Shown here: piece by piece, positions 15,782 to 62,300 of the stretch
Numbering within the stretch: position 1 is the first letter of the stretch
Layout: every line of letters begins with the position of its first letter
Position numbers and translations under genes: made by a program
Assembly: GCA_021018995.1 (NCBI GenBank)
Contig: CM037584.1
Span: forward strand, 174,300,317 to 174,364,316
Origin: Chloranthus sessilifolius
Lineage: Eukaryota; Streptophyta; Magnoliopsida; Chloranthales; Chloranthaceae
DNA length: 64,000 bases
Reading direction: 5' to 3'
The notes under the pieces: generated by a model
What the model was told of the DNA's origin: nothing
The model's database searches: none
What the model saw: only the letters and a program-made list of their open reading frames with translations

Positions 15782-17899
15782 ATGGTGAAAGCTGTGTGTG
15801 TGAATGGAGATCTCGACACTGCCAAGTATGGTTCCCCAATGTCCATGATTGGTACCTATATAGCTTTGGCTACTTTGGTATGTTTCCTCTCCATCTCTTT
15901 TGATATCTTCCATGGGTTTCGTCGTAGAACTCCATGGTTACCCTGTAAGCTCTTCTCTCTAAATTCATTTACATTGACTGTAGTGTCAGTTGCTGCAAAA
16001 CTGCCAGTCGATCTTAGCACCCCAATGCCGAGAGCAGCAGATCAGCTCTCCAAGATAACTGGCAGTGCCCTTCTTTGTATTTCTATGGGGGTTTTCATGC
16101 CTTCTCTTGGATCTATGAGGACATCTGAATGCTTGGCCAACATGGCCGCCTTAACTGTTCTGATTATAACTGTTGTAGTCAATATACGTATACAAATTGC
16201 CACAGGTGTGATCTTCACTTTCATCCCAGAACATATAATACTCATGGTCTGCATGTTTGTATTTCTTGTGGCTCTGTGGTCTTCTACTTTAACCCTTTAT
16301 TTACCAAAAAAATTCTGCAATTCAGATTATAGAGAGGCAGCAGAGGATTACCCAACTGAATGGAGTTTAGAGAGTATGAGAAAGCAATTAATGAAGCTCT
16401 ATGGACTTAGTTACTGTTGTAGCCCTCAATTGTTCTGTTGTGAAACCTTGAACTGTATATTTGTGGGCATTCCAAGTGTTGTTTGTGCAGCGATTGCGTC
16501 CGAAACTGTAATTCGATCTTTCTTTGTTAAAGACATCACGTTCTGCAATGGGGTTTCTGATTACAAGTGGTCGGTGTGGGGGGTGTTTGTGATTCAGATC
16601 CTTTGTATCGTAATGGGTAGTTTTACGGTGCTATTTAGATGGTTCACCATTGTTGCTCACATGAGCATCTCTAATTTCAGTAGTGTACAGTACTCATCTT
16701 CAGGTCGAGATTTTGATGAAGATGTGATATTTATGATTTCGAAATTTCTATTGCGGCTAAATTATGAATTTTCTTGCAAGAGTCTCAGAATGATATCTTA
16801 CGTGTTAGGATTTATTGTTCTGGTGATACTATTTGTACTGCATAAAATGGTGGAAATAGTGGGCAAGCTGGTTGTACTCTCTTGCTTGAAGGTGAGGAAC
16901 TTATGTGCATTGATGATGATGGGAAAATGCAGAGAGAGTGCAAAAAAGCAAATGAGTTCCGCTCCTAATGAGGGTTTGCAAAACAAAGAAATCACTCTCT
17001 ACGATGACCCTAGGATGACGGAGTGGAAATTGAGAATGCTTGCCAATGATACACAGAGATCGATAGAAGCTAATAAAAGGGGCGCCCCAACTCATTTAAT
17101 TTCTCTCTTGTCTAAATCCTTAACTCCTCAACAACGCTCTTACTCCCTCTTTAGAAGAATCAAAGATAAACTCCTGAGGCATAACGACAGAGTGTCGAGT
17201 GGTACACTAGTTTGCTTAGCAATTCTCAATGTTTTAATATCATCTCCACGAGCTGAATATTTGATGAACTGCTTGAGGGAATCCATGGAACTCATTTTTT
17301 TTATAGAAGAGAAAATGAACATGAAAGATGCAAATGATATATTGACATTAGAGTGGTTTCAAAGAGTGTGGGCAGGCATGGATCTTTTCACTTGCTGGAT
17401 GAAAAGTGAAGTAAATCATGAGTTAAGGGCTGCTAGTGAACCGCCGGGGGAGGAGGAACTAGGCCAAACACTAGGAATAATCCAGATTGTAAGAGATAAG
17501 AGTCAAATTCTGAGTGGAATACATCGTCAGATCGTTTGTGATTCCATTATGGAAGGCAGCTATAAATCAATCGACGAGCTGTACCAATGCCTAGAAGTAA
17601 CTTTTGTAGACATGTTGAGCATGTTACTTGCTGATCTTCCATGTGCGATTTTTAAGGAGTATCACGAAAATTACGCAATTGAAGAAAGTGAAGAAAGAGT
17701 AATAAATGCCATGAAATTTTTTCTAAAAGCTGAGCTATTGGGTGACAAGGTCAATTGGTCTTGGCCTACCCCAAAAGCTGTTACTCAAGTTGTTGCAAAT
17801 ATGGATGCTAGTTCGCAGGAAGAAGGTGGCCAAGGTATCAATGGAGACAACGAAAATGATGGAGAAGTTCAAGAGATAGGACCAGAAGACCATGTTTGA
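15782..17899 (+). CDS. Multi-spanning membrane protein of unknown function (copy A, intact)
   Basis: A single-exon open frame of 705 codons. The N-terminus (MVKAVCVNGDLDTAKYG) is followed by about eight hydrophobic segments at roughly residues 22-40, 57-75, 94-110, 121-146, 150-174, 222-246, 263-290 and 337-362. A soluble C-terminal half follows, ending in an acidic tail rich in Glu, Asp and Asn. It resembles a plant family of uncharacterised membrane proteins that share the CVNG.LDTA..G.PM..IG.YIA start; I know no assigned function. The start is supported because the same ATG and N-terminus are kept in copy B and in the relic at 43360, and the leader before it is also conserved. Its neighbour is a tandem copy 1.1 kb downstream. 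No transposase or retroelement motif is present, so I take it as a host gene. The membrane topology is inferred from hydrophobicity. Confidence 0.85.
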   Translation: MVKAVCVNGDLDTAKYGSPMSMIGTYIALATLVCFLSISFDIFHGFRRRTPWLPCKLFSLNSFTLTVVSVAAKLPVDLSTPMPRAADQLSKITGSALLCISMGVFMPSLGSMRTSECLANMAALTVLIITVVVNIRIQIATGVIFTFIPEHIILMVCMFVFLVALWSSTLTLYLPKKFCNSDYREAAEDYPTEWSLESMRKQLMKLYGLSYCCSPQLFCCETLNCIFVGIPSVVCAAIASETVIRSFFVKDITFCNGVSDYKWSVWGVFVIQILCIVMGSFTVLFRWFTIVAHMSISNFSSVQYSSSGRDFDEDVIFMISKFLLRLNYEFSCKSLRMISYVLGFIVLVILFVLHKMVEIVGKLVVLSCLKVRNLCALMMMGKCRESAKKQMSSAPNEGLQNKEITLYDDPRMTEWKLRMLANDTQRSIEANKRGAPTHLISLLSKSLTPQQRSYSLFRRIKDKLLRHNDRVSSGTLVCLAILNVLISSPRAEYLMNCLRESMELIFFIEEKMNMKDANDILTLEWFQRVWAGMDLFTCWMKSEVNHELRAASEPPGEEELGQTLGIIQIVRDKSQILSGIHRQIVCDSIMEGSYKSIDELYQCLEVTFVDMLSMLLADLPCAIFKEYHENYAIEESEERVINAMKFFLKAELLGDKVNWSWPTPKAVTQVVANMDASSQEEGGQGINGDNENDGEVQEIGPEDHV

Positions 17900-19015: not shown

Positions 19016-21142
19016 ATGGTGAAAGCTGCGTGTGTGAATGGAGATCTCGACACTGCCAAGTATGGTTCCCCAATGCCCATGATTGGTACCTATATAGCTT
19101 TGGCCACTTTGGTATGTTTTCTCTCCATCTCTTTTGATATCTTCCATGGGTTTCGTCGTAGAACTCCATGGTTACCCTGTAAGCTCTTCTCTCTAAATTC
19201 ATTTACATTGACTGTAGTATCAGTGGCTGCAAAACTGCCGGTCGATCTTAGCACCCCGATGCAAAGGTCAGTAGATCAGCTCTCCAAGATAACTGGCAGT
19301 GCCCTTCTTTGTATTTCTATGGGGGTTTTCATGCCTTCTCTTGGATCTATGAGGACATCTGAATGCTTGGCCAACATGGCCGCCTTAACTGTTCTGATTA
19401 TAACTGTTATAGTGAATATACGTATACAAATCTCCACAGGTGTGATCTTCACTTTCATCCCAGAACATATAATACTCATGGTCTGCATGTCGGTATTACT
19501 TGTGGCTTTGTGGTCTTGTGCTTTAACCCTTTATCTACCAAAAAAGTTCTTCAATTCACATTATCGAGAGGCAGCAGCAGATTACCCATCTGAATGGAGC
19601 TTGAAGAGTATGAGAAAACAACTAATGAAGCTCTATGGACTTAGTTATTGCTGGAACCCTCAATTGCTGTGTTGTGAAACCATGAGTTATATTTTGGTGG
19701 GCATTCTATGTGTTGTTTGTGCAGCAATTGCATCTGAAGCTGTAATTCGATCTCTCTTTGTCGAGGACTTCACATTCTGCAACGGGGTTTCTGATTACAA
19801 GTGGTCGGTGTGGTGGGTGTCTGTGATTCAGATCCTATGAATCGTAATGGGTGGTTTCACAGTGATATGTAGATGGCTCAGTATGGTTGGCCACATGGCT
19901 CTCACTAATTTTAAAATTCCAGCGCACATGTTTAGAGCTAAAGAATTTTCTGTTAATGAGGTTTTCCCGATTGCTAAATTTCTATTCAACCTATACCTAT
20001 ACGTTGAGTTCCCTTGCAAATGTCTCAGTGTAATTTCTTATGTGTTAGTTTATTATATGATCGCACTGCTCTTTGGATTGCATAAAGTTGTGGAAACGGT
20101 GGGCATGTTGGTTGCATTCTCTAGTTTGAAGGTGAGGAACTTATTTACACTGATGATAGTAAAATACACAGAGAATGTGCAGAGGCAAATGTGTTCAGCT
20201 CCAAAAGAGGGTTTGCAAAACAAAGAAATCACTCTCTACAAAGACCCAGGGATGATGGAATGGAAATTGGGAATGCTTGCCGATGATACAGCGCGATGGC
20301 TGGAAAACAACAAACGGGGTGCTCCAACTCATCTAATTTCACTCTTGTCTAAGCCCTTCACTCCTCAACAATGCTCTTACTCCCTCCTTAGTAGAATCCA
20401 AAATGCACTACTAAAGTACGAAGATAAAGTGTCAAGTGGTACACTGGTTTCCTTAGTAATTATTAGTTTTTTAATATCATCTCCGCGAACTGAATATTTG
20501 ATGCCATGCTTGAGAGAATCTATGGAACTCATTTTTTTCGTGGAAGAGAAGATGAACACGAAAGATGAATATGGTTTAAGAACATTCGACTGGTTTCAAC
20601 GTGTGTGGGCTGCTCGAGAATATTTTTTTTACCCAATGAAGAGCCAAATAAAAAGTGAATTGAAGGCTGCTAGTGTACCACTAGAGGAGGAGGAAGAATC
20701 AGTTCTAGACCATACACTTCGAATAGTCCAGATTATAGTAACGGAAAAACTATATTTGGGAATAGATGGAAGAATTATTTGTGACTCCATTATGGATACC
20801 AGATATGAATCAATTGACGAGTTATATGACTGTCTAGAAGTAACAGTTGTAAACATGTTGAGCATGTTACTAGCTGATCTTCCACGCGCGATATTTAATG
20901 AGTATCATGATGGTTATGCCATTGAAGAACGTGAACAACGGATAGGAAATGCCATGAAATTTTTTGTAAAACTTGAGCTATTGAGTGATAAGGTCAAGTG
21001 GTCATGGCCTACTCCAAAAAATGTTACTCAAGTTGCTACTTATATTGATAATAGTGCACAGGAAGAAGGTAGCCCAGGTGTTGATGCAGACAACGAAAAT
21101 GATGGAGAAATTCAAGACATAGGACCAGAATTGCAGGTTTGA
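19016..21142 (+). pseudogene. Tandem copy B of the membrane-protein gene, one nonsense codon
   Basis: Copy B aligns with copy A from about 110 bp before the ATG through the acidic C-terminus. It is open from 19016 to a TGA at 19838-19840, then open again in the same frame to the stop at 21140-21142. Copy A has TGT (Cys) in the matching codon, so one point change separates copy B from an open frame of 708 codons. The first 274 codons keep the early membrane segments; the rest keeps the later segments, the soluble half and the acidic tail. Similarity is highest at the 5' end and lower in the 3' half. It may be a young pseudogene, an allele-specific loss, a sequencing error at one base, or a gene making a short membrane-only product. 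Confidence 0.8.
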
Positions 21143-23863: not shown

Positions 23864-25163
23864 TTAGGCAGTGGCACTATTTTCATAAGTGGGCCACCTG
23901 ATGAGAACCCGGTGTGAAGATCTAGTCCGTCAAAGATTGAATAAAAGAAACACATCTCCATTGTGTCATTCAAAGCAGTCAAAGTGTCTTTAAAATTAAC
24001 CGTGTTAATTGATTTTAAAGATTTACTCAACTGTTCATTTAAAAAATGTGTTGCATCAGGCTACATTTATATACAATATGAGATTTTATTTCTCAACTTG
24101 GGTTATACATGCTAAAGCCGTTGACTGCTTTCAATCAAATGTTAGAGATTGTTTTTTATCTTAATATTTCAAACAATAGATCTTGAGATCTTACCCGTAC
24201 CATCAAATGGTCAAATATTGATTCCAGGTTGTATACATCCTAAAACAAACCATTTGATAGTACGCTTATGGTCACCACATTAATTGTGTCGAAGATCTAG
24301 GCAAAAAAGATCTCTATTGTCTGATTCGAAGCTTAAGGTCTCAACATTTATTGTGTTGAAGAACTGGGCGAAAAACGATCTACATAATTTGATTTAAAGC
24401 AGTCAATGGTTTCGAGGCGTTTCAATTGTTGGCACTTTTAGAAATCGCATTGGCGCGAATAGAGTTACCCTTAAAAAAAATAAAAAAAAATTTAAGGAGC
24501 AAGGGTTGACTTACTCCGCTCTTAAATTTATCCTTAAGCCACCCGCCGGCCAGCCAATACAGATCAAAGGTAGAGCAAAGGTTGACTTACTCCTGAATTT
24601 GGGTACTTGTATTTACAACTCATGATCCTTGCTTCTCAACAATAGTTTAGGTGCTTGAACAAATCACTACTTTGAATCAGACAATCGAGATCTTTTTGTC
24701 ACCGCACAACGGATCTTGGCATCATCTGCCTACAATCAAATGTAAGATTTTGATCCTATGTGGCACATATCCCAAAAAGAGAACATAATCATTTCATAGA
24801 TCAAACTGATTCTTAGATCCCTCTACGAGATTAGTGGCATGGAATAAAAATCTGACCTCCCCCCTCCCCGATCTCAAATTGTGTCAAAATTGGGGCGAAA
24901 AATGATATGCATCGTCCAATTCAAAGATCATCACATAACTAGGATCCGATGAAAAAAAATAAGTGTGTATGCAAAGAGAAAACTAGTACACTTTCAATAG
25001 TGTACAAGCCTAATACCTTTTATAAATTATAATATTTTTAATGTTGCATCTCGGAACAATTCACACCTCAATGTCGTCTAGCTAAGGGCCAAGACGTCAA
25101 ATGTCTCACCCCAGAAATCTCGTCTCGAGCAAGATTTCAAACCATGTTTGTTCGAGCCCGATG
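23864..25163. other. Gene-free interval with foldback-family fragments
   Basis: No gene. Several stretches (23930-24000, 24180-24470, 24640-24920) repeat words of the foldback family seen at 42.3 and 51.2 kb, such as GATCTTGAGATC, 'gattcgaagc' and 'gcgaatagagttaccc'. They look like decayed copies. Confidence 0.4.
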
Positions 25164-26633
25164 TGATTTTAAAAGTGTAATACTCATAAATGTACGAGTC
25201 GTACCGTTATAAGCGGGTACAAAGTACGAGGTCGTTCCCACAAGAAATTTAAATAGATTTTTAAAAAGAAATAATTATCAATCACAGAATTTCCTAGAAT
25301 TATCATAATATTAATCTAACCTAACAAGTTTGATGAATGTAAATGAAAAATAAACTAAACAAGATAATATTAATCAAAGAAAAACATGCGATGTTTCAGA
25401 TTCTAAATCCTCTCATCCTTGATTATCATTCAAGAGTTCAGATATAAAGGGTGAATATTAGAGACGAAGATGCATAAAGATTAAAATCAATTAAAACTTT
25501 ATAGAAGATAAAGGCAATTAAATCGGTATAAAAATCTAAGGTAATACTTTTTCAAATCTACGAATGAAAAGAACCAAAACATTCGACGTATTAAACAAAA
25601 TCTAATTACAATGAATTAATGAATCTAATTTTTGCATTCAAAACAAGATTAGGACACCTAATCATAGATCTAAGATCAGGGGAAAAGCATGACTATTTCT
25701 CATATCCCGGAATGATGATTAAATTCCAAAAATGATAAAAGCATATAGGCGCAAAAATCATAAAGACATCTACTAACATTCCAATCACATATCTAACTTT
25801 ATGGATGAATCCCTAGGATGAGATTCATTAAATACTAAATCTCTAAGAAAATAGCCACACAGTTCAATAAGAACAATGCAAATAAATAAAAAAATGAAAT
25901 AAATTTCATTATAATACCAGAATTTATCGTCAAAACGAATCCAACAATGACATTTATCAACCTGCTACAGTCTTCCTCCCTAAAAATAACCACTACTTTA
26001 TGTTCTAGATCTAGAGAACTCATAAAAAAAGGTTATAAAACTCAAAGAAGATGGCTAGAAAACTCAAGAAAAGACCTAGAAATGTAGAGACGACTAAGAA
26101 AAATAAAGACCTCAAAACTAATGTATGAAAAGATAGAGCTCCTTAACCCTAACTCTAACATTACCTTTTATAAGGCTTTTTTTTGAAATTCTAATTTTTT
26201 TTTTCTTAAGTTTGACTAATTTCGGACCTTAAAAATATAAAAATTCAGTCCAAATTTTCCTGAAATTTGATCCAACTCTTCAATAGACACGACCTTGGTA
26301 TTTTTGTCATAACTTTTTATTCCGAACGCGGATTGACACGATTCTTGCGACATTGGAAAGAAGACAACGAATTTTACAACTTATGATTGAAATAACAATT
26401 TTAAAAATCTGATATTTTAATGATCAAATTGACCTGTAAGTCGGGAAAAGTTCTAGATTATCCACGATTGCACAGATTTAACGTTATTTTCTAAACTCTT
26501 GAGCTATTTTATGCTCAACTTATCTTCAGATTTGTAAATCACTAAAATTACATAAAATATTTTAAATAACTTTCATCGGATAATAATCTCTAAGTTTAAG
26601 GGATAAAAAATTAACGTTTTTCAACACTTATCA
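25164..26633 (-). repeat. 3' LTR (full length) of the Athila/Tat-like element
   Basis: About 1470 bp, TG...CA in element sense. Its outer 270 bp match 29988-30255 in direct orientation ('acgagtcgtacc', 'cctaacaagtttgatgaatg'). Its inner about 430 bp (26219-26633) are homologous to part of the gypsy LTRs described at 30953 and 38694. Confidence 0.8.
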
Positions 26634-30952: not shown

Positions 30953-33858
30953 TGTCACGACCCAGAATCCTTACCCGATATCGAGGGCCTAGAATTCCGT
31001 GTTATGACACCGCATGCTGGTTAAGGCAATAAGCGGACATACACATAATCTATAAATTGACTTAGCATATGGATTGAGGCATGTAAGATAGCATTAAAAA
31101 TAATTGACTCATAAATTAACAGCGGGAATTATAAAAGACAATAAAAAGATAAATCCTAACCATGCATCTAAGATAGGAAAAAAATAAGTTTTACGTAGGA
31201 TAAAATGGTCCTAAACATGAACTCACAAAAATATCAAAATAACTAGAATATGTCTCTCAAAGAATAAAGTCTAAAGCAAAGGACTCTTAAGGCTCGTAAA
31301 AAATCATTGGATCTACGCTCTCCTGGGATGATAGCCAACATCTCCATCTACGTAAGTCAGCCTCCTAACAATGACTCTCAAATCATCAAGGACGGGATAA
31401 GCGTAATTTTCACAAATCGTTAGATTTTGGGAGGGGTGAGTTTACTCAATCACAGAACTCTGGTTGCACAATCGATCCACCATAACTTACACAGGTGGGC
31501 GTGTGTGCAATCGCTTGAATGCTGCATTTTAAAATATAACCAACATCTTAAATAAATGAAATAAACTTATCCATAATTCATAGACTATCATAATCAAGAA
31601 AAAATACTAATATAACATGAAGAGTGCATGATGCTTCTATTTTCTTATCTCTTTTCCTATTTGTCTCATCACGTAGCATATATCGTAAGTCTTATTAATT
31701 ACTCCATACGCCTACACAACGCATTTGCATCTTATCTTATTTAAACGATCATGCGCTGATCGTTGCCGAGCCTACCACGCGAGGTCCACGTGTAGATAAC
31801 CACCTAACCTCCATATCATAACATAAACCACCATCGACCGGATGAGGTTGCCGGCATAGTAACCACGATGTCCCTTAGTTCGAGACAAGGCTATAATGTC
31901 CTTAAGACCCGCCTTGTCAGTAGAGCGTTAAGCCCTTACGGTGGCTCGTAAGGTATGGCACGTGTAGAAACTTAATTTATATTTAGGCCTTCACACAGTA
32001 TCTTAACATATCATAACATTATTTTTACGGCTTAGGTCCACGATTTTATATTTCGTGGGCTTAAGTCCCCACTTTCTTAACATACATGTGTCTTAACATA
32101 TTCTTTTCTCATTTTTCTTAAAACTTAGTTAGAATAGGCCACGGTGCGATAGGCTTCACTAAACCACATTTTCCAAGGGACGGGTTCCGTAGTAACCTAG
32201 ATGTACTTCGTGTGGTATCCCATACTACCATAGAGGGGTTGCATCCGTACATGGATGCCTACATTCCAAGTTCCACGTGACCGTGAAAGAAACCCCACCG
32301 TGACGAAGGCTTAAGTCATGTGTCATATTTTATTCTTAACTTATATGCGTATGCCCTATCGTAATTTTTTATATGATGAATGTCATATGATAATGGTGAA
32401 CATATATAAGAATGAATTATAACATAAACCTTAAACATTTCATATTTTTGAAGAAAATTAATAAAAAGCATAACATATGAAATATTAAAGTAAAACAGAA
32501 AATAAGAAATATTTAACTATATTTATTTTACAATAGTGTTGAAACTATACTTCATTAAGGTTAATTATATTCATGAAATTTTGTGATTGACTGGTATAGC
32601 GATCCAACCTATTTTAAAATTCTAAAGGAGCGCATGTGTCAATTCAAGAATTGTATGAGCCTTAGAGGAGATAATAGAATGGTAAGTATTGAAAAACGTC
32701 CATATTTGACCCCTTAAACTTATAGATTGTTATTCGATGCAAGCTATTTAATGTATTTTATTTAATCTTAGCGATTTATAAGTCTAGAAATAAGTTTAGC
32801 ATAAAGTAGTCAAAGAGTTAAAAAAATAATGTCAAACCCGTGTAACCTTGGATCATCTAAAACGTATCCCGACTTGCAGCTCAATTTTGACCTTAAAAAT
32901 ATTAAATTCGTGAAATTGCTATTTCAGACAAAGTTGTAGATCTCGTTGTCTTCTTTCCAATGCCGCAAGAATCACGTCAATCCGAGTTCAGGATAAAAAG
33001 TTATGGCCAAAATACCGAGGCTGTGTCTGTTGAAGAGTTTGGCCGAATTTCACGAAAATCTGGGAAAAACGATCCTATCGAATTTGGGCCTAATTTCTAT
33101 ATTTTTAAGACCCGAAATTTATCAAAATTTAAGAAAAAATTAGGGTTTTCTTTTTAAGAAATGACTAAATAATTTAAGATGGATTTAGAGGCACCCACCT
33201 GTTGAAGCGTGTTTCGAATCCTACGATGATTTGGGTTGATGGAGATCGGATTCGAGAGACGATATGCCCGAGTCTTTTCGTGAGAATTCCTTTCTTACGA
33301 TAAATTGGTGTGACGATGAGAAACTTTGATGGTGTAAGATTCTACGATAAGATCGAAAATCGCGAGAATTATGAAAGATGGCGTAGCTTTTGCAGAGAAG
33401 AGGGAATAAAGAAAGACAACTGAGAGAAGAAGTAAATATATATCTAATTCCCTGTATAGGTTAACTCTAATTAAGACTTTCCGTATAAGATTTAATAAAA
33501 TAGTAGTTTTTCTACGCAAGTAGAATTCATACGTGACTTGAAAAGCTTGAGAAGAGGTTTTGCTCCAGCGCTTTGTGTAAGCACCAAGGTAAATGGTGAT
33601 TCAAATTTATAGTTGTGCCTTTAACCCGCTTCACTCTTCAAACGGGCATAACTTTTTATATTCTTATCGAAAATCGACAAATTATATATCGTTGGAATCG
33701 AGACGAAAGTACTCCGCATTGAGTCTAATATTGATATATAAAAAAAAATCAGACTATTTCTAAAGTAAGTATATTCCGGTGTGGAGCGTTAGCACCACGC
33801 ACTGTGTGGTATATCATCTAATACCATTAAATAAAATTCAAAAATCTGGGTTATTACA
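30953..33858 (-). repeat. 3' LTR of the large gypsy element
   Basis: 2906 bp, TGTCACGACCC at its left edge and GGGTTATTACA at its right edge on the plus strand (TG...CA in element sense). It is near-identical to 38694-41549 over long stretches. This LTR is unusually long; part of its length (about 32690-33130) is homologous to the Athila/Tat-like LTR at 26219-26633. Confidence 0.92.
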
Positions 33859-38693: not shown

Positions 38694-41549
38694 TGTCACG
38701 ACCCAGAATCCTTACCCGATATCGAGGGCCTAGAATTCCGTGTTATGACACCGCATGCTGGTTAAGGCAATAAGCGGACATACACATAATCTATAAATTG
38801 ACTTAGCATATGGATTGAGGCATGTAAGATAGCATTAAAAATAATTGACTCATAAATTAACAGCGGGAATTATAAAAGACAATAAAAAGATAAATCCTAA
38901 CCATGCATCTAAGATAGGAAAAAAATAAGTTTTACGTAGGATAAAATGGTCCTAAACATGAACTCACAAAAATATCAAAATAACTAGAATATGTCTCTCA
39001 AAGAATAAAGTCTAAAGCAAAGGACTCTTAAGGCTCGTAAAAATCTGTTGGATCTACGCTCTCCTCCGGATGATAGCCAACATCTCCATCTACGTAAGCC
39101 TCCTAAACAACAACTCTCAAATCATCAAGGACGGATAAGCGAATTTTCACCGAAATCATTAGATTTTGGGAGGGGTGAGTTTACTCAATCACAGAAACTC
39201 GTGGGTTGCACAATCGATCCACCATAACTTACTCTGGGCGTGTGCAATCGCTTGAATTCCGATGCATTTTAAAAATATAACCAACATCTTAAATAAATGA
39301 AATAAACTTATCCATAATTCATAGACTATCATAATCAAGACTGAAAAATATACTAATATAACATGAAGAGTGCATGATGCTTCTATTTTCTTATCTCTTT
39401 TCCTATTTGTCTCATCAACTTAGCATACGTGATATATCGTAAGTCTTATTAATTACTCCATACGCCTACACAACGTACTTCGCATCTTATCTTATTTAAA
39501 CGATCATGCGGGATCGCCGAGCCTACCACGCGAGGTCCACGGTAGATAACCACCTAACCTCCATATCATAACATAAACCACCATCCAGCCAGATGAGGTT
39601 GCCGGCATAGTAACCACGATGTCCCCTTAGTTCGAGACAAGGCTATAATGTCCTTAAGACCCGTCTTGGCTGCAGACGTTAAGCCCTTACGGTGGCTCGT
39701 AAGGTATGGTAAGAAACTTAATTTATATTTAGGCCTTCACAACGTATCTTAACATATCATAACATTATTCGGTTACGGGCTTAGGTCCCCGCCCGATTTT
39801 ATATTTCGTGCGGCTTAAGTCCCACTTTCTTAATATATATGTGTCTTAACATATTCTTTTCTCATTTTTTCTTAAAACTTAGTTAGAATAGGCCACTGCG
39901 ATGACAGGCTTCACTAAACCACATTTTCCAAGGGACGGGTTCGTAGTAACCTAGATGTGCCGTGTGGTATCCCATACTACCATAGAGGTTGCATCCGTAC
40001 ATGGATGCCTACATTCCAAGTTCCACGTGACAGTGAAAGAAACCCCACCGTGAGAAGGCTTAAGTCATGTCATATTTTTATTCTTTATACTTATGTCGTA
40101 TGCCCTATCGTAATTTTTTATATGATGAATGTCATATGATAATGGTGAAATATATAAGAATGAATTATAACATAAACCTTAAACATTTCATATTTTGAAG
40201 AAAATTAATAAAAAGCATAACATATGAAATATTAAAGTAAAACAGAAAATAAGAAATATTTAACTATATTTATTTTACAATAGTGTTGAAACTATACTTC
40301 ATTAAGGTTAATTATATTCATGAAATTTTGTGATTGACTGGTATAGCGATCCAACCTATTTTAAAATTCTAAAGGAGCGCATGTGTCAATTCAAGAATTG
40401 TATGAGCCTTAGAGGAGATAATAGAATGGTAAGTATTGAAAAACGTCCATATTTGACCCCTTAAACTTATAGATTGTTATTCGATGCAAGCTATTTAATG
40501 TATTTTATTTAATCTTAGCGATTTATAAGTCTAGAGATAAGTTTAGCATAAAGTAGTCAAAGAGTTAAAAAAATAATGTCAAACCCGTGTAACCTTGGAT
40601 CATCTAAAACGTATCCCGACTTGCAGCTCAATTTTGACCTTAAAAATATTAAATTCGTGAAATTGCTATTTCAGACAAAGTTGTAGATCTCGTTGTCTTC
40701 TTTCCAATGCCGCAAGAATCACGTCAATCCGAGTTCGGGATAAAAAGTTATGGCCAAAATACCGAGGCTGTGTCTGTTGAAGAGTTTGGCCGAATTTCAC
40801 GAAAATCTGGGAAAAACGATCCTATCGAATTTGGGCCTAATTTCTATATTTTTAAGACCCGAAATTTATCAAAATTTAAGAAAAAATTAGGGTTTTCTTT
40901 TTAAGAAATAACTAAATAATTTAAGATGGATTTAGAGGCACCCACCTGTTGAAGCGTGTTTCGAATCCTACGATGATTTGGGTTGATGGAGATCGGATTC
41001 GAGAGACGATATGCCCGAGTCTTTTCGTGAGAATTCCTTTCTTACGATAAATTGGTCGCGACGATGAGAAACTTTGATGGTGTAAGATTCTCTGATAAGA
41101 TCGAAAATCGATGGAGATCCGACGAGGAATTATGAAAGATGGCACTGTCAGAGCTTTTGCAGAGAATATAAGATTTAATAAAATAGTAGTTTTTCTACGC
41201 AAGTAGAATTCATACGTGACTTGAAAAGCTTGAGAAGAGGTTTTGCTCCAGCGCTTTGTGTAAGCACCAAGGTAAATGGTGATTCTCTCCCAAATTTATA
41301 GTTGTGCCCTTTAACCCGCTTCACTCTTCAAACGGGCATAACTTTTTATATTCTTATCGAAAATCGACAAATTATATATCGTTGGAATCGTATCGACGAG
41401 TACTCCGCATTGAGTCTAATATTGATATATAAAAAAAAATCAGACTATTTCTAAAGTGAGTATATTCCGGTGTGGAGCGTTAGCACCACGCACTGTGTGG
41501 TATATCATCTAATACCATTAAATAAAATTCAAAAATCTGGGTTATTACA
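38694..41549 (-). repeat. 5' LTR of the large gypsy element
   Basis: 2856 bp, the pair of 30953-33858. Its first about 310 bp and its stretch at about 40190-41040 are almost identical to the partner, while the part between differs by many short insertions and deletions. Confidence 0.92.
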
Positions 41550-49420: not shown

Positions 49421-49729
49421 ACGAACGAGATTTGGTTGGAGAGATTAAGGTCTGGGTTTGATTTAGAAAAACAACCTTAAAATACAAATGTTTTAGCCCA
49501 AAATTTAGAACTTAAACGTTTTAAACACGAGGTTTCACAATTTTTTGAAGTTATGAAATCCGTGAAATCTCAAATACTTAATTTTTCCTTGGTTGTCTTC
49601 TCCACTCAAACCACTCAAAACCACCGACGGCTGCAGCAAGTTCACTCCGACGAAACCAGCTCCGACGGCTTACAGTGAGCCATTTGCGGATGTCCCCGCA
49701 GCCCACTAGTAGATCAAAGCCCCCCAAAA

Positions 49730-50220
49730 CCCCATGGCCTCCACACTGCCCCTCCTCTCTCTCTCCCCCCTCCCGACCCCAAAAAGCCCCCTCCCCGCCC
49801 CTAGTCCCACCTAGAAATGGTCCACCTGATCCAATCCTACCAAGAAAAATGGTACTTCCTGAAGCGCGGCCAACTCAAAGCCAGCCAATGGGAAGGAGTC
49901 TCGGTCACCGTCGCCGCCCACTGTGGCTTCGACAAGCCTTCCAAGACCACCACCCAATGCCGCGACAAGATCAAAAAGCTTCGTAAACGGTACCGTCATC
50001 GCAAAATCATTGATTTCCCACCGTCAGAGCATCGGAAACTGATTCCAAATCGGTCAATCAGAAATTCCCACACCAAATGAACTCCAAGTGGATGGTCGGC
50101 ATGGCTCTTCGCCGCCACAGGCGATGCTCTCGACGGCTGGACTCCTCACTGTGTTGACACCTTCGAGAAGCTCGCAAATTCCTCGCTACGCCGACACCTT
50201 CGAGAAGGTCGCGAAGGTAG
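49730..50220 (+). pseudogene. Captured trihelix (SIP1/ASIL-like) transcription-factor fragment
   Basis: The frame holding 49817 reads HLEMVHLIQSYQEKWYFLKR, then GQLKASQWEGVSVTVAAHCG and TTTQCRDKIKKLRKRYR: the Myb/SANT-like trihelix DNA-binding domain of the SIP1/ASIL group, in which the spaced tryptophans hold the helices. The first domain tryptophan is changed to TAG just before the conserved SHLEM, so the ATG at 49817 is internal. A Pro-rich segment precedes it, as in such factors. After RYR the frame runs into unrelated residues and stops at 50078-50080; the later coding part is missing or scrambled (50081-50220 remains GC-rich). It lies wholly inside the inverted arms at 49454-50616, so it was most likely copied there by the transposon. 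It is not a working gene. Confidence 0.75.
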
Positions 50221-50305
50221 TCGAGAAGTCGGAACCCTAATCTTTACCGACGGTTGGTTTTGTTGGGGGTAGTTTGAGTGGAGAAGACAACCAAGGGGCA
50301 GATTG

Positions 50306-50451
50306 CACTACAAAAAATAAGACTATTAGCGGGTTTTTTGCAGCAAAAAACTGCCGCTATTAACAAAAAAACTATTAAGACTATTAGCGGCAATATTTTT
50401 GTTAGTAGCAGCAGTTTATGGCTGCCGCTAATAGTCTTACTTTTTGTAGTG
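50306..50451. mobile_element. 146-bp CACTA-type MITE with TTG target duplication
   Basis: Ends CACTACAAAAAATAAGAC and GTCTTACTTTTTGTAGTG are inverted, and the inversion extends into CTATTAGCGG / CCGCTAATAG. It is flanked by TTG at 50303-50305 and 50452-50454, the 3-bp duplication expected of CACTA elements. It is inserted into the right arm of the gene-carrying element. Confidence 0.92.
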
Positions 50452-50832
50452 TTGGGGCAGATTTGTAAACTCACTAATCCACTTAAATGAGAATTTGAGA
50501 TCTCATGGATCTCTAAACTTCAAAAAATCGTGAAATCTGTTTTTTTTAAAACGTTTAAGTTCTGGTGGTTTTTGGCTAAAACATTTGCTTTTCAAGGTTG
50601 TTTTTCTAATTTTCCCTTGATTTGTTGGGGATTTGAGAGGAAATGAGTTTGGAATTGGTGCGTTTAGACTTTGGAGGAGAGAGGATGACTTGCCTTCTCA
50701 TCTTCTCCCTGGTTTTTTTATAAAAAGGAGAGAGAGATACCCTAATTAGATTGACAGAAAGTGAGAGGTTAGAGGGTTGTTAAGTATGGAGCTGAAACTA
50801 TGAACATGGAAGAAGATGTAAATGGTAGTTCT

Positions 50833-50882
<50 letters not shown>

Positions 50883-51189
50883 TTTTTGCATATACCCCCG
50901 AGTTATGCTAATATTATAAGAAATCCGAGTTATGGGTATTTATTCTAAAGCCCTTACTTTTGTATTTGTGTTTCATATAACCCTTGTCGCTAACTAGCCG
51001 TTAGTTTATGGATAGAAGGACTATTTTGCCCTTAATGAAACCAATATTCTAAAAATACCACCATTCTAAAAGGCCCTTCATTCATCTATATTTACAAGTC
51101 ATGTCATTAAAGTTTACCACCATTCTAAAAGGCCCTTTATTCATCTTTATTTATAAGTCATGCTATTATAATTTACTACCATTCTAAAA

Positions 51190-51602
51190 GGAGTACCTTT
51201 AAATCCACCCACAAACTCTTTGAGTTCACCCATGAAATACATCGACTATATTGAATCAGACGATAGAGATTGTTTATCGTCCCAATCTTTTATGAGATCG
51301 ATCTTTAGATCATGGGTGTACCATCAGACGGTCAATTTTTTATTTCATGCGGTACACACCATAAAAGTAACCTTAAAATCAATTTTAAACGTGCACGTGA
51401 TGCTACGGTCACTTTACTGAGATGTGTACCACGTGAAATAAAACACTGGCCGTCTGATGGTATGCTGATAATCTCAAGATCCATTGTGTGAAATATTGGG
51501 AGGATAAATGATCTCCATCGTCCAATTCAATTCAATTCAATTAACGTGTTTCAACGTGGGGGAACTTAAAGATTTAGTGGGTGGAAGCACATTAATGGGT
51601 AC
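51190..51602. mobile_element. Foldback element, family B, copy 2, nested in the MULE
   Basis: Two inverted arms of about 190 bp: left has GTACCATCAGACGGTCAA and ATTTCATGCGGTACACA, right has TGTGTACCACGTGAAATAAA and GGCCGTCTGATGGTAT. Outer parts (AGTACCTTTAAATCCACCCA / GTGGGTGGAAGCACATTAAT) are also inverted. Same family as 42268-42712. Confidence 0.75.
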
Positions 51603-51726
51603 ACATTAATTAGTTCTTCTCAAGATCAATTGTATAACCAGTGATTCATGTGCTTTAAATTTTATTTCTATCTTGATTTTAGTGGGTGGAAGCACATTAA
51701 TTAGTTCTTCTGGTTCCTCTTGTTAT

Positions 51727-51947
51727 TCATCTTTCTATCTTGATCCATTGGAAGCCTGAAGAAGTCCCCCGTTTCACCTTCCTTATACCTTGAGAAGCAA
51801 CGGTTTGGTCTTTTCGAATCCATCTCCCACCTTCTTACCATATTTGGTTTTTCCACCTCCCATCTTCTTCTTCGTTGGTATAGGGTCTGGGTTGCTATAA
51901 TCCCACTGATCAGCCCACGATTTCTCAAATGGGCTATTGTGTTCCAT
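51727..51947 (-). pseudogene. Captured fragment of a small conserved plant protein of unknown function
   Basis: It reads MEHNSPFEKSWADQWDYSNP, then KKKMGGGKTKYGKKVGDGFEKTK. After a one-base shift at the TK codon it reads VASQGIRKVKRGTSSGFQWI to a stop at 51727. From memory, plants have a family of roughly 70-residue proteins with W.DQWDY.PDP, K.KYG.KV..G..KTK.VAS.G.KKVK.GTS.GF.WIK; no function is known to me. Both halves of that pattern are present here, so it is a nearly full-length copy broken by one frameshift. It lies inside the MULE at 50880-54828, in opposite orientation to the neighbouring TPX2 fragment, so the two come from different sources or captures. Confidence 0.6.
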
Positions 51948-52203
51948 CAAAAGATTTTCCAAAAAACAGATAGCTGACAGACCAAAAGAGCTGATTATAC
52001 AAAATGTAAAAAGCCTTGAACCCAAAATACACATGTAATGAATTGATTAACAAAGGTATTCTCTACCTTTTTCTTATTGCTAAGCTATTTGAATATCCTG
52101 TAGCATGCACCTTATATATAAGGATTTAACTTATGCAAAATGATTATCTTATTTCACTACATGTATTACTATATAACAGTGAAAATGGTTTAAAGATAAA
52201 GAA

Positions 52204-52690
52204 AGTTGGTTCTCTCCCTCAACTTGCATCTGACAAGAGTGAATCCAAAGGACCCCAATCGGCAAACAGGTTTATGATCATCATCAAAATTGCAAAAACT
52301 CCCTCCTTCATAATTCTTAGATTTGACCTTCTAATCAAAATCCAATCATGCAGGTCTAAGAGGATTGTGAATTCCATTAAGACAGACTTGAAGCCAAGTG
52401 GTGCGATTTTCACTTTCAAGACTGATGAAAGAGTAGAAAGGAGGAAAGAGGCAACCAATCACTTGGTTCTTGTTGTTTCAAATTTGTTTCAATTACAATA
52501 GTACCCAAACTCATGTTTGTTATTCATCTAATTCAGTTCTACATGAGGTTTGAAGAAAAGCTCCATGCTAAAGAGGCTGAGATGAACCAGATCCAAGCAA
52601 AAACTCAAATATGAAGAATGATCCCACTTGTAAATTTAGATATTCAATTTTTTTCTTTGAAGCATCACCCATGCCTTCTTTCCATCTTGA
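52204..52690 (+). pseudogene. Captured TPX2-family (WVD2-like) gene fragment with introns retained
   Basis: Exon-like pieces: about 52204-52269 (VGSLPQLASDKSESKGPQSA), 52354-52450 (SKRIVNSIKTDLKPSG, FTFKTDERVERRKE), 52537-52609 (FYMRFEEKLHAKEAEMNQIQ) and 52657-52690 (FEASPMPSF). The F.FK.DERAERRKEFY.KLEEK and KA.PMPSFY signatures belong to the TPX2 C-terminal domain of plant microtubule-associated proteins. The intron 52270-52353 has GT..AG borders and joins in phase (AG|G = Arg). The next has AG at 52536 but GC instead of GT at 52451. The segment between 'QAKTQ' and 'EASPM' is mostly lost. Retained introns mean genomic DNA was copied, not mRNA. It is a non-coding fossil of a host gene. Confidence 0.75.
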
Positions 52691-53014
52691 ACTTCGGCTA
52701 TAAACAAAAAATACAAATATACGCAATCAGCCATCACCCTATTGAAAGACCAATTGGCTATAAGTGTACTAAAGTTGATGAAATCAGGCCATCTTCTTCA
52801 AAAGATAAAAAAATATAAAACCAAAATAAAAGCAATATAACAAAATCAAAAAACACAAAAATGGTCATGCTAGGGCAACACTGAAATTTTCTTGATCAAA
52901 GCGTCTATCCTTGAGATATAAAAGTGCATCAGTTAACAACATGCTCAAAGCACCCAAAGATACACCATACCATAGTCTAGGTGAAAATTTGAGCGTTAAG
53001 TCCAGTATGGAAAT

Positions 53015-53440
53015 TTAAACAGGTCCATGTCCATAGCTGCCTGAAGCGTGTCCACGTCCACGCTCGGAGCTGATCAAACCTAGTCCACGTCTAGAGCTGC
53101 TAGAAGTTGTGCCACATCCCGAGCTGCCTAAAGCTGAGTCACGACCATAGCTGCTTGAAGTCCCACCGCATCCACGTCCCGAGCTGCTTGAACCCCCATC
53201 GCGTCCACATCCCGAGCTGCTTGAAGTTGAGCCACGTCTATAGATGTTTGACAGTCCTTCATCATTTTGGAGGTTCTTTGCAACACCTCCGATTATGCCC
53301 ACCCAACCCACAATTAGAGCACTTTTTCAAAGACTGTACTCTCATTTGACTAGAGGGTTGTTCATCTTCATCTTTAACTCTATTTTTTTTGGTCGACCAG
53401 GGAGTCGACGGGCAGGTGGTGGGTTACAGATAATATCCAA
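53015..53440 (-). pseudogene. C-terminal tail of a MULE (MuDR-like) transposase
   Basis: On the minus strand from about 53428: PPPARRLPGRPKK, then NRVKDEDEQPSSQMRVQSLK and CSNCGLGGHNRRCCKEPPK, followed by stops. GRPKKNR and a CX2CX4HX4C knuckle are the usual end of MULE transposases, after the SWIM domain. An A-run after GRPKK holds a one-base frameshift. A Ser/Gly/Arg-rich segment (53020-53250), which is a minisatellite of a CCGAGCTGCTTGAA-type unit, follows and matches the tails of such proteins. The catalytic DDE and SWIM parts are not seen, so the gene is a remnant. It marks the surrounding 50880-54828 element as a MULE. Confidence 0.75.
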
Positions 53441-53643
53441 AGGAGGCCAAAAAGTACAAATAACCCAGAAAAAAGGGTTTAAGATAGAAAAAAAAAATAA
53501 TTTTACAAATTAGAATCAGGTTTCTTGGCCCTTGCCCTATACATCTTAGATTTGAAAATACGATTTTAAAAAATAAGAAAAGATTGATTGGCCCAACAAG
53601 AGAAGAGGTCGACTGTACCTCAAGCAATGAGAAAAATAGAAAA

Positions 53644-53911
53644 CCACAATCATCACATTATATGCAACCACATTTCTCTCGGGCATTTCTACAAACACTT
53701 GTTTTGCAGCTCCCAAATCACCAATCTTCGCATAAAAATCCAGCAACCTAGTTTGCAAAAAGAGATCAATTTCAAACCCACTTTCAAAATCTGGCAATGA
53801 ACAGCTTGGCCCACCCCAGCTGCCACCAAAACCGCACACACCGAGAATCATAGAGAAAGTGGTGTTATCCGGCACGACATTTTCACAAAGCATTTTGTTA
53901 TAACAACCCAC
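53644..53911 (-). pseudogene. Captured PPR protein fragment
   Basis: It reads NKMLCENVVPDNTTFSMIL, then LQTRLLDFYAKIGDLGAAKQ and VFVEMPERNVVAYNVMI. These are pentatricopeptide motifs of the PLS class (LLDFYAK.GDL..A..VF.EMP.RNVV.YN.MI), which in full-length proteins bind organelle RNA. Only about two repeats remain of a protein that normally has ten or more. It lies just upstream (in minus sense) of the MULE transposase tail inside the same inverted ends, so it is a captured fragment, not a resident gene. Confidence 0.75.
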
Positions 53912-54660
53912 AAATTCTCAACCAAAACCAAATTCGATAGAAACCAGAATCAACAAATTCCATATAGACGCGTTCGGTTTCGGTAGATTTTGTAAGCAAA
54001 TCAAAGCATAATCGAGCTTAATAACCCAGAAAATACAAATAAACCTTAAAAATTAACTGAAAAATAACCCTAACAAATAACCCATAAACTCCCCCTACTT
54101 TAAGGCCACCCCAGGGTTTTATATCCTATGCTGATCCGACATGTGCTGAATTTGGGGTGCGCATGTGCCCCGGGATTAGGTGCTCTAAGAGGCTCGGATA
54201 TCCAGGTTATCAAAAAATAATAATAATAAATAAAAATAAAATAAAAAAAAAAAAACAAATAACCCATAAAAAGTTTCCAAAAAATAACTCAAAAAACATA
54301 AAAAATAACCCAAAAAAAGATTTGAAAAAAAAAACCCTCAAGTATATAGATCTGGCAAAAAATTAATTCGATTTTACCTGAAGAAAATTTGAGAGCGAAT
54401 AGGTTGTTGAGGTGCTTCACACGTCCAAAGCTTGAGGGTTGCAGAGATGTGCCGAAACGTTTCGAAGTGGTTAGTCTTCACCTTCCTCGAGACGCTTCGG
54501 AGCTTGAGGGTTGCAGAGCTTCGACCAGAGCTTGAGGTTCTACCTTGGGTTTTTTCTCCCTGAAGGATGTTTGTAATCTTGGGTTTGCGGGAGAAAGATG
54601 TTAAAGAGAAGCCATTCGGTTTAAATTTTGCGATGGGGGTAGTTTCGGTTTTTTCTCAAT
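53912..54660. other. Right interior of the MULE, no gene recognised
   Basis: A-rich sequence with repeated 'aaataacc' words (54010-54350) and, at 54410-54540, a duplicated GAGCTTGAGGGTTGCAGAG. The latter might be a leader for minus-strand transcription, but nothing shows it directly. Confidence 0.4.
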
Positions 54661-54828
54661 TTATACCTTGGATTTATCCTTAACCTTGATTTTAACTGAA
54701 GCTAATTCTAACGTCGGGGGATTATATGAAACACAAAAACAAAAGTAGGGGCTCCAGAATAAATACCCATAATTTAGGAGGTTTCTTATAATATTAGCAT
54801 AACTTGGGATTATATGCAAAAAAACCCA

Positions 54829-55364
54829 TATATATATTATTTTCTTTATGTTTTACTTTTTCGATGATGTCATACGGCATGGAATAACTTATATAGTGTC
54901 TGTGCCATGGTTTCATCCGGATCCGGATCAGCCGATTCGGATCGGTTTTGACCCAAACGATCTCAAACCCTTGGGTTGGATCATTTGAACGTGGGTATCG
55001 GACCTGGATCGGTCGGATCGCTCTGAATCGACCGATATCGAACGATATTTAGGTTGGATCGCCGATCCATCGATCCTGGAAACTTATACACATAAAAAAT
55101 ATATTAAACCCTACACCGAATATAAATTACAAAATAATGCAATTATACTAATCTTCACCCAAAATAACTAAACTTTCTAAAATCCCTAGCGTCTATTGCT
55201 AGGTCTCTTCAGTTTTCCTCTTGCATTGGGCTCTTTTTTCTGAATCTGGAAGGTCTTTGGGTGGTTCACGACTTCATGCAATGGGATGTTGAGCATGGCT
55301 TTTCTGATATGCCAGTATTTTTTGTGATTTTTCGCAAGGTTTTTGTTGACATTAGTAATGTATG

Positions 55365-59366: not shown

Positions 59367-62300
59367 GTGCACGTGTATGGGAAAGAGAGTCGTGGGGCGT
59401 GTGAGGCTAGGGCACTAATTGACCCAGGGTCTACGCATTCATTTGTTACACCTCGGTTCGTAAAGAGAATGAAAGTCAAGCCAAATGCATTAGATTTCGT
59501 TCTAGCGGTGACTATCCCAACAGGACGAGCAGTTGACGCAGAATTGGTCTGTAAAGCGGTGACTATAGCCATTGAAGATGGGGAGGTGTATGAATTGTCC
59601 GCGAATTTAATTCTTTTAGACATGCAGGGATTCGACGTGATCCTTGGCATGGACTGGTTGTCACAACATTGTGCAACGGTTGATTGCAAAAACAAAATCG
59701 TCATCTTTAGGCCGACTTCAAGCAGATCATTCCGATTCAAGGGAGTGAGGACAAAGTTCCTACCACATGTGTCCGCCATCAAGGCCGAACGCCTAATTCG
59801 AAATGGATGCAGTGGTTACTTGGCCTTCCTGAAGGATGACAAGAAAGAAAAGAATGTTATTACCGAGATTGCAGTGGTATGTGAGTTTGATGATGTTTTT
59901 CCAGAGGAGTTGCCAGGATTACCTCCGGATCGAGAAGTGGAGTTTGCTATCGACTTGGCACCTGGAACGGAGCCGATCTCTAAAGCACCATATAGGATGG
60001 CACCGGCCGAGTTGAAAGAGTTAAAAGAGCAACTGCAAGAACTCCTCGACAAGGGCTTTGTGAGACCGAGTGTATCTCCTTGGGGTGCGCCGATTTTATT
60101 TGTTAAGAAAAAGGACGGGTCACTGAGGTTGTGCATTGACTACCGTCAACTAAACAAACTCACTATAAAGAACAAGTACCCGTTGCCAAGAATAGATGAC
60201 TTGTTTGACCAATTACAAGGGGCGAGATACTTTTCTAAGATCGATCTACGATCTGGATATCACCAACTTCGAGTTAAGCGTAAGATATTCAAGGCGCTTT
60301 GGACGAGATCGGACACTATGAGTTTTAGTGATGCCGCTCGGGTTGACGATACGTCGTCCGCTTATGGATCTCATGAATCGGGTATTTAAGCCACACCGGA
60401 CTCTTTTGTCGTTGTATTTGTCGATGATATCCTCATTTATTCTAAGTCAAAGCAAGCGATGAAGAACACTTGAAAATAGCCTTACAAACGTTATGAACAC
60501 CAACTATCGCCAAGCTCAATAAATGCGAGTTCGGTTAGAAGAAGTTAGCTTTTGGGACATGTCGTCTCAAAGGATGGTGTCACAGTAGATCCTACTAAGA
60601 TTAAGGCTGTCGTGCAATGGGAACAACCAAAGACGGTCACCGAAGTACGCAGTTTCCTTGGGTTAGCTGGGTATTATAGACGTTTTGTGGAAGGGTTTTC
60701 CAAATTATCGGGGCCACTGACTAGACTTACACGCAAAGATGTGCGATTCGAATGGACCGATGCATGTGAAGCAAGCTTTCAAGAACTTAAGACGCGGCTT
60801 ATCGCTTTTGCGCAATTCCTTCAGTGTGGAGGTTTTGCGATTATATGACGCTTCTCATAATGGTTTAGGGCTGTGCTAAACCAACATAAAAAGGTCATTG
60901 CTTATGGATCGAGACAATTGAAGGACCACGAGAAAAATTACCCAACGCATGACCTCGAGCTCGCAGCGGTCATCTTCGCATTGAAGATATGGAGACATTA
61001 TTTATATGGGGAGACCTTCGAGATCTTCACTGACCATAAAAGCCTCCGATACTTATTTACACAGAAGGAACTGAACATGAGGCAGCGAAGGTGGATGGAG
61101 TTTCTCAAAGATTATGACTGCTCCATTCAATACCACCCAGGCAAGGCCAATGTTGTTGCAGATGCTTTAAGTCGTAAGAACCCGGCTCAGTTAGCGAACC
61201 TTGTGATGGGAATGTACAGGTGGAAATTGTTTGAAGACCTGTCATTGTATGATGCTAGGATCGAAGTGCAAGCTTCTGGGGCTCTGTTGGCTAATATCTC
61301 AGTGAGGCCGATCATTTTCGAACACATACACGAGCTGCAGATGAAAGACCCTGAACTGGTAAAGATTCGGAAAGAGGTAGTGGAAGGTACTAGACCGAAT
61401 TTTTCGATAAGGGAGGACGGTTCCTTGCTATTCCGGGGACGTCTTTGTATTCCTGTTGATGCCGATCTGCGGCAAACTATTCTAGATGAATCCCACAAAT
61501 CTAAGTACGTAATCCATCCGGGTAGCACTAAGATGTATCAAGATATGCGTACGAGCTCGGTGGAGAGGTCTCAAACACTGACGTAGTGAGTATGTGTCAA
61601 AATGTTTAACATGTCAACAAGTGAAGGTGGACCATCGACACCTATGCTTACTACAACCTCTACCTATACCGGAATGGAAATGGGACTCTATCTCCATGGA
61701 TTTCGTTGTCGGGTTGCCTTGACGGCGAAGAGGCACAACGCTATCCGGGTAGTTGTGGATAGTGACGGTTCCGCTCACTTCTTGCCCTACAACTCTATGT
61801 ATAAGCGCAGCAAACTCATGGAGCTCTATATGAAGGAGATAGTGCGCACACGGCATTCCAAGTAGTATTGTATCGATCGCGACCCACTATACACTTCAAA
61901 GTTTTGGAGAAATTTCAAGAGGGTATGGGTACTGATTAGATTTCGATTCAGCGCTCCATCCACAAACCGATGGATGCAGTAACGGTAAACCAAGTAATTG
62001 AAGATATGCTCGTATGTGTATGCTCGAACTACGGGGATCATGGGATCAACACCTTCCTTTGATCGAATTTGCATACAACAATAGTTTTCGTGCAAGCATC
62101 GGAATGGCGCCGTATGAAGTTTTCTCTGAGTGGCGATGTAGATCGCCCATCAACCGGAAGAAACAGGAGAAAAATTTGTGCTTGGTCCAGGAAGTTCTTG
62201 AAGAAAATGCCAAGTTGGTACGTATGATAAGGGAACGACTCTGCAGTGAACAAAAGAGCTATGCGATGTCAAGCGAACGAGCCTAGATTTCGCCATTGGC

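Follow-up and report, generated by a model that had tools for sequence, protein, structure and literature searches.

The segment at positions 50880–54827 of the window, by which we mean the whole 64-kb stretch of DNA that was analysed, is quite probably a decayed, non-autonomous Mutator-like element (MULE) of a plant genome that holds several gene fragments. With a span of about 4 kb, it is most likely a broken Mutator-type plant transposon that carries parts of a number of ordinary plant genes. The anatomy is best explained by a MULE-like element with several gene fragments: the inverted ends are long, the fragments lie on both strands, introns have been kept, and the genes are truncated or frameshifted. 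The contents include two confirmed gene-family fragments (TPX2 and PPR), a probable third fragment and a probable transposase remnant. The present version of the element would have been mobile in the past.

The inverted ends enclosing this segment (50880–54828 in the original prediction) are real. Aligned with each other by blastn and followed out to the AT run at their flanks, they define the left terminal inverted repeat at positions 50880–50983 of the plus strand, with weaker similarity continuing to about 51006, and the right one at positions 54718–54827 of the minus strand. Positions 50882–50983 and 54718–54823 form an inverted match of 106 columns with 87.7% identity. In a gapped alignment, which reaches into the AT flank as far as 50864 and 54840, the two ends score 89; dinucleotide shuffling (500 pairs) yielded at most 25 and on average 15.7. 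A chance origin of the ends is thus ruled out. Their similarity fades inward and halts at the AT run on each outer side; past the AT run the outer flanks have nothing notable in common (best local score 9). No third copy of the end sequence was found within the 64-kb window. The repeats are 104 and 110 bp long, while MULE terminal inverted repeats are typically 100–500 bp, and the target-site duplication 9–11 bp, according to the passages compared in PMC3310237. Putative 10-bp target-site duplications, (AT)5 in exactly matching copies, lie at 50870–50879, where the left copy ends an AT microsatellite of about 45 bp, and at 54828–54837; since many offsets match inside an AT repeat, their identity is compatible with a MULE, uninformative and non-diagnostic. 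Inverted matches of at least 80 columns with E ≤ 1e-10 make up 14 rows across the window after mirror rows are dropped, namely seven self-palindromes and seven two-armed pairs, one of the latter being the ends of the element. The inverted ends are therefore far from chance, yet inverted pairs are not rare in the window, and the pair alone is no proof of a single element.

All 34 stop-to-stop frames of at least 50 aa in the segment were scanned against Pfam. Only the PPR fragment exceeded a curated cut-off in an unaltered frame, and neither the MULE domain nor the SWIM domain was found in any of the 34 frames. Given that the catalytic MULE domain and SWIM are absent, the segment does not qualify as an autonomous MULE. 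As these domains would equally be missing from a deletion derivative, the designation "MULE-like" stays compatible with the segment.

The TPX2-family fragment of the plus strand could be confirmed only once it was spliced. It spans 52193–52608 and consists of exons at 52193–52269, 52354–52450 and 52537–52608 (PF06886), the start of the first being picked by eye. The gaps between the exons are 84 and 86 bp long and have GT–AG and GC–AG borders. Spliced in order, exons 2 and 3 score 36.0 bits against PF06886 (E = 6.9e-9, cut-off 25); the match covers 38 residues and profile positions 1–38 of 77, where it stops. Exon 3 alone scores 14.8 bits and the peptide of all three exons 34.9 bits; exon 2 alone has no Pfam match. 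Joined in reversed order, exons 2 and 3 still reach 20.7 bits (E = 0.0004), a score that falls short of the cut-off (25) without vanishing, because each exon holds part of the domain. The intron-like gaps have been kept and the profile fits only when the exons are spliced in order, which points to a copy made at the DNA level; the gaps rule out a retrocopy.

The PPR fragment, also anticipated on the minus strand, stands in its unaltered frame and is decayed. It is PLS-like and occupies positions 53549–53917, scoring 35.4 bits against PF13041 (PPR_2, cut-off 30) and 27.0 bits against PPR_3 (cut-off 25). The neighbouring frame at 53692–53847 has no Pfam match of its own and, by eye, resembles the stretch missing from the PPR repeat, which suggests that the fragment carries two compensating frame changes. 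The hand-joined query retrieved 30 PDB sequences at E ≤ 1, the best being a synthetic PPR-DYW protein and PLS9-PPR. Both the TPX2 and the PPR fragments would be host-derived copies.

The probable third fragment encodes a small protein, MEHNSPFEKSWADQWDY...GFQWIK, obtained by six-frame reading of the minus strand at 51730–51947. It begins as MEHNSPFEKSWADQWDYSNPDPIP... with an ATG at 51945–51947 and, after a frame change, runs to GFQWIK at 51730. The frame with SWADQWDY is indeed present, as in the original prediction of a small protein of the "WADQWDY" type; no search puts a name on it. The protein has no match among Pfam families, the "WADQWD" motif was not found in a literature search, and no relative was detected in viral_contigs, a collection where plant sequence is not expected. 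We take it to be a fragment of a plant gene.

The putative 3' tail of a MULE transposase lies on the minus strand at 53018–53423. In more than one frame the six-frame reading contains RRLPGRPKK, a CCHC zinc knuckle (CSNCGLGGHNRRCC, 53289–53321) and a stretch of S/G/R-rich repeats. The motifs of such a tail are visible, but every Pfam score is below threshold: the best match of the tail is zf-CCHC_4 with 12.9 bits (cut-off 27), and the zinc knuckle of the hand-joined tail scores 9.5 bits. No relatives of the tail were found in viral_contigs or genome_contigs, in neither of which one would expect plant sequence. Literature searches for "GRPKKNR" together with transposase and for Mutator-like elements with SWIM and a zinc knuckle returned no match. 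The order of the motifs resembles that of plant MULE transposases, and the tail probably belongs to this family. Irregular repeat units at 53026–53251 encode the S/G/R-rich part; one family of units is spaced at 27, 27 and 93 bp, another at 114 and 33 bp.

The minus-strand region 54378–54690 (the start is approximate) is a candidate leader exon for a gene belonging to the element itself. Its end, CAG|GTAAAA, is of the kind that a leader exon would have, the donor site being at 54369–54390; the frame at 54377–54655 in this region has no Pfam match. If the leader exon and the tail belong to one gene, the PPR fragment sits in the place expected for the body of the transposase.

Two further repeats were observed inside the element. 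A 59-bp sub-terminal unit occurs as two tandem copies on the plus strand at 51056–51191 (units at 51056–51173), which are 88% alike over the unit; the extended match aligns 51056–51132 to 51115–51191. A nested palindromic MITE-like repeat, recognized from its aligned arms, lies approximately at 51184–51613. It has partial relatives in the window at 802–867 and 24878–24924, and no target duplication was found for it. Several weaker candidates were set aside. Among 24 further frames of at least 50 aa none exceeded its Pfam cut-off, and four gave sub-threshold matches to unrelated families (12.3–14.9 bits, best E = 0.031) that were taken as chance. The same applies to a PH_22 match on the plus strand at 52130–52498 (16.7 bits, cut-off 27). 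Possible extra fragments on the minus strand at 52571–52797 and 52868–53014 have no Pfam match; the single match of the latter in a PDB search (E = 0.45) was also attributed to chance. A tRNA scan and an Rfam scan at the gathering threshold yielded nothing.

By its contents, we read the window as plant-like nuclear DNA. Its G+C content is 37.3%. A CACTA-type transposase (Transposase_21, 289.9 bits) is located at 1470–2789, and pieces of retroelement protease, reverse transcriptase and RNase H are found within 59367–61586. Another pair of inverted repeats, which match at 81.7% over 120 columns, lies at 49463–50609, 270 bp to the left of the element. It contains a Myb/SANT-like fragment (PF13837, 33.5 bits, cut-off 27, plus frame 49805–50077), presumably of the trihelix type. 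The pair could represent an additional Pack-type element; a search for its target duplication gave nothing clear, only two off-register 8-bp matches with one mismatch. Its right arm harbours a short element at 50306–50451 with inverted CACTACAAAAAA...TTTTTGTAGTG ends that are 96% complementary over 27 bp, which we assume to be a CACTA-like MITE. Elsewhere in the window, two related genes stand in tandem at 15782–17899 and 19016–21142. The second is broken up into two frames, whose matches to the first reach 88.7% over 274 columns and 60.7% over 433 columns, and neither gene has a Pfam family at E ≤ 0.001. A repeat of about 385 bp has copies at 26250–26633, 32680–33063 and 40427–40810 that are about 81% identical; one of the three is oriented opposite to the remaining two.

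The anatomy of the element suggests the following origin. The transposase gene would have run on the minus strand, starting from the right end. Its 3' tail and possibly its leader exon would survive, while the DNA-binding, catalytic and SWIM parts would be gone, with the PPR fragment in their place. The TPX2 fragment with its introns and the small-protein gene would be further genomic fragments that separate the transposase tail from the left end. Most likely, breaks or gaps inside the element were repaired by copying ectopic genomic templates in at least two steps; mutation and the nested MITE insertion would have followed. Both the capture by template switching and this order of events are proposed on the basis of the present arrangement. 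Gap-filling and template-switching models are described, as studied in animals, in passages of PMC8277862.

The number of captures might be smaller. The small-protein gene, which starts at 51947 on the minus strand, and the TPX2 fragment, which runs from 52193 on the plus strand, stand head to head, 245 bp apart, and a head-to-head spacing of about 245 bp is common for divergent genes. They may have been divergent neighbours copied as one piece, in which case one or two events, not three, would be needed. However, the visible part of TPX2 looks internal and unlike a gene start, so that the loss of its first exons would have to be assumed. We consider this variant of the best explanation, with which it is compatible, possible though doubtful. 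A different reading denies that the segment is one element: a dispersed repeat, present in two independent and oppositely oriented copies, would by chance bracket old gene debris. The seven two-armed inverted pairs in the window are of similar strength, two of them share an arm, as dispersed repeats do, and both outer limits lie in AT runs, so that a shared sharp end is unreadable to the base. Against this, the similarity halts at the AT run on both sides and fades inward as it does in terminal repeats, the outer flanks scoring only 9, and a third copy of the end sequence is absent from the window; such bracketing is unlikely. The element could also be a composite, formed by fusion of two neighbouring insertions that lost their inner ends and mobilised the intervening DNA. 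A fusion model has been published for Pack-TYPE elements (in the passages compared from PMC8903248), and the tandem sub-terminal units on the left agree with it, but no remnants of inner terminal repeats were found, the end sequence being limited to the two outer copies within the window, and we regard a composite as quite unlikely. A functional role was considered as well for the single MULE-like element that we prefer. A putative chimeric transcript of the minus strand, made now or formerly from the right end and joining the leader exon, the PPR piece and the transposase tail, would run antisense through the TPX2 fragment. Such expression, with an exon-shuffled new gene or regulatory RNA against TPX2 or PPR genes as its outcome, seems very improbable.

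That MULEs and other DNA transposons capture genes has already been published (see the passages compared in PMC2528002 and PMC8903248). Pack-MULEs (Jiang et al. 2004, as cited in the passages compared from PMC9168764 and PMC13317346) have long inverted ends around several host-gene fragments, like the present segment, which differs from them in the additional probable transposase tail. As to the host gene fragments that enter the Pack-MULE definition, the spliced TPX2 and the PPR exceed curated cut-offs. The classification of Pack-MULEs also involves no transposase match (PMC8903248, passages compared); tail-like motifs are present here, all below Pfam cut-offs. According to the same passages, Pack-TYPE elements can hold genic material from multiple loci, as reported earlier for rice Pack-MULEs and Arabidopsis Pack-CACTAs. 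Such multi-locus elements are frequent in maize, whereas in rice they constitute a significant number (19%) only for Pack-Mariners. The width of Pack-TYPE elements correlates with the number of loci, and small transposase fragments may persist in some maize elements, as PMC8903248 suggests there. The passages compared from PMC3310237 also describe a decayed MULE that shows similarity to transposase and has, in addition, a solo terminal repeat.

In grapevine, according to the passages compared from PMC2528002, ULP sequences are located downstream of the transposase in MULEs, exons as well as introns of a cellulose synthase occur in one Mutator family, and a CACTA element includes a PPR fragment. 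Our segment resembles the grapevine MULEs with transduplicated genes, as well as KI-MULE and its ULP protease, in that transposase and host gene sequence occur together. In these elements, according to the same passages, ULP lies downstream of the transposase reading frame; our segment has the tail only, along with TPX2, PPR and the small protein. The grapevine CACTA family Cactavine-5 shares with it a PPR sequence aboard a DNA transposon. It belongs to another superfamily, and its PPR is downstream of the transposase in the opposite orientation (likewise in those passages of PMC2528002), whereas here the PPR is at the expected place of the transposase body, on the same strand as the tail.

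The original prediction considered several captures together with a transposase remnant uncommon. This is unsupported, as multi-locus elements, elements with both transposase and host genes, and a transposon-borne PPR fragment are all published (passages compared in PMC8903248 and PMC2528002). Hence rarity was dropped as a point of interest. The exact combination, a MULE with at least three fragments and a transposase remnant, may be scarce; the passages compared in PMC8903248 and PMC2528002 give no frequency for it, and those from PMC1852403 contain no figure for multiple captures. All kinds of parts seen in the segment are already known, and it is one more case of a well-described class. An element that keeps both edges of the transposase gene with foreign fragments between them could reveal, at the level of single bases, how MULEs acquire genes, if the donors and sibling copies are found.
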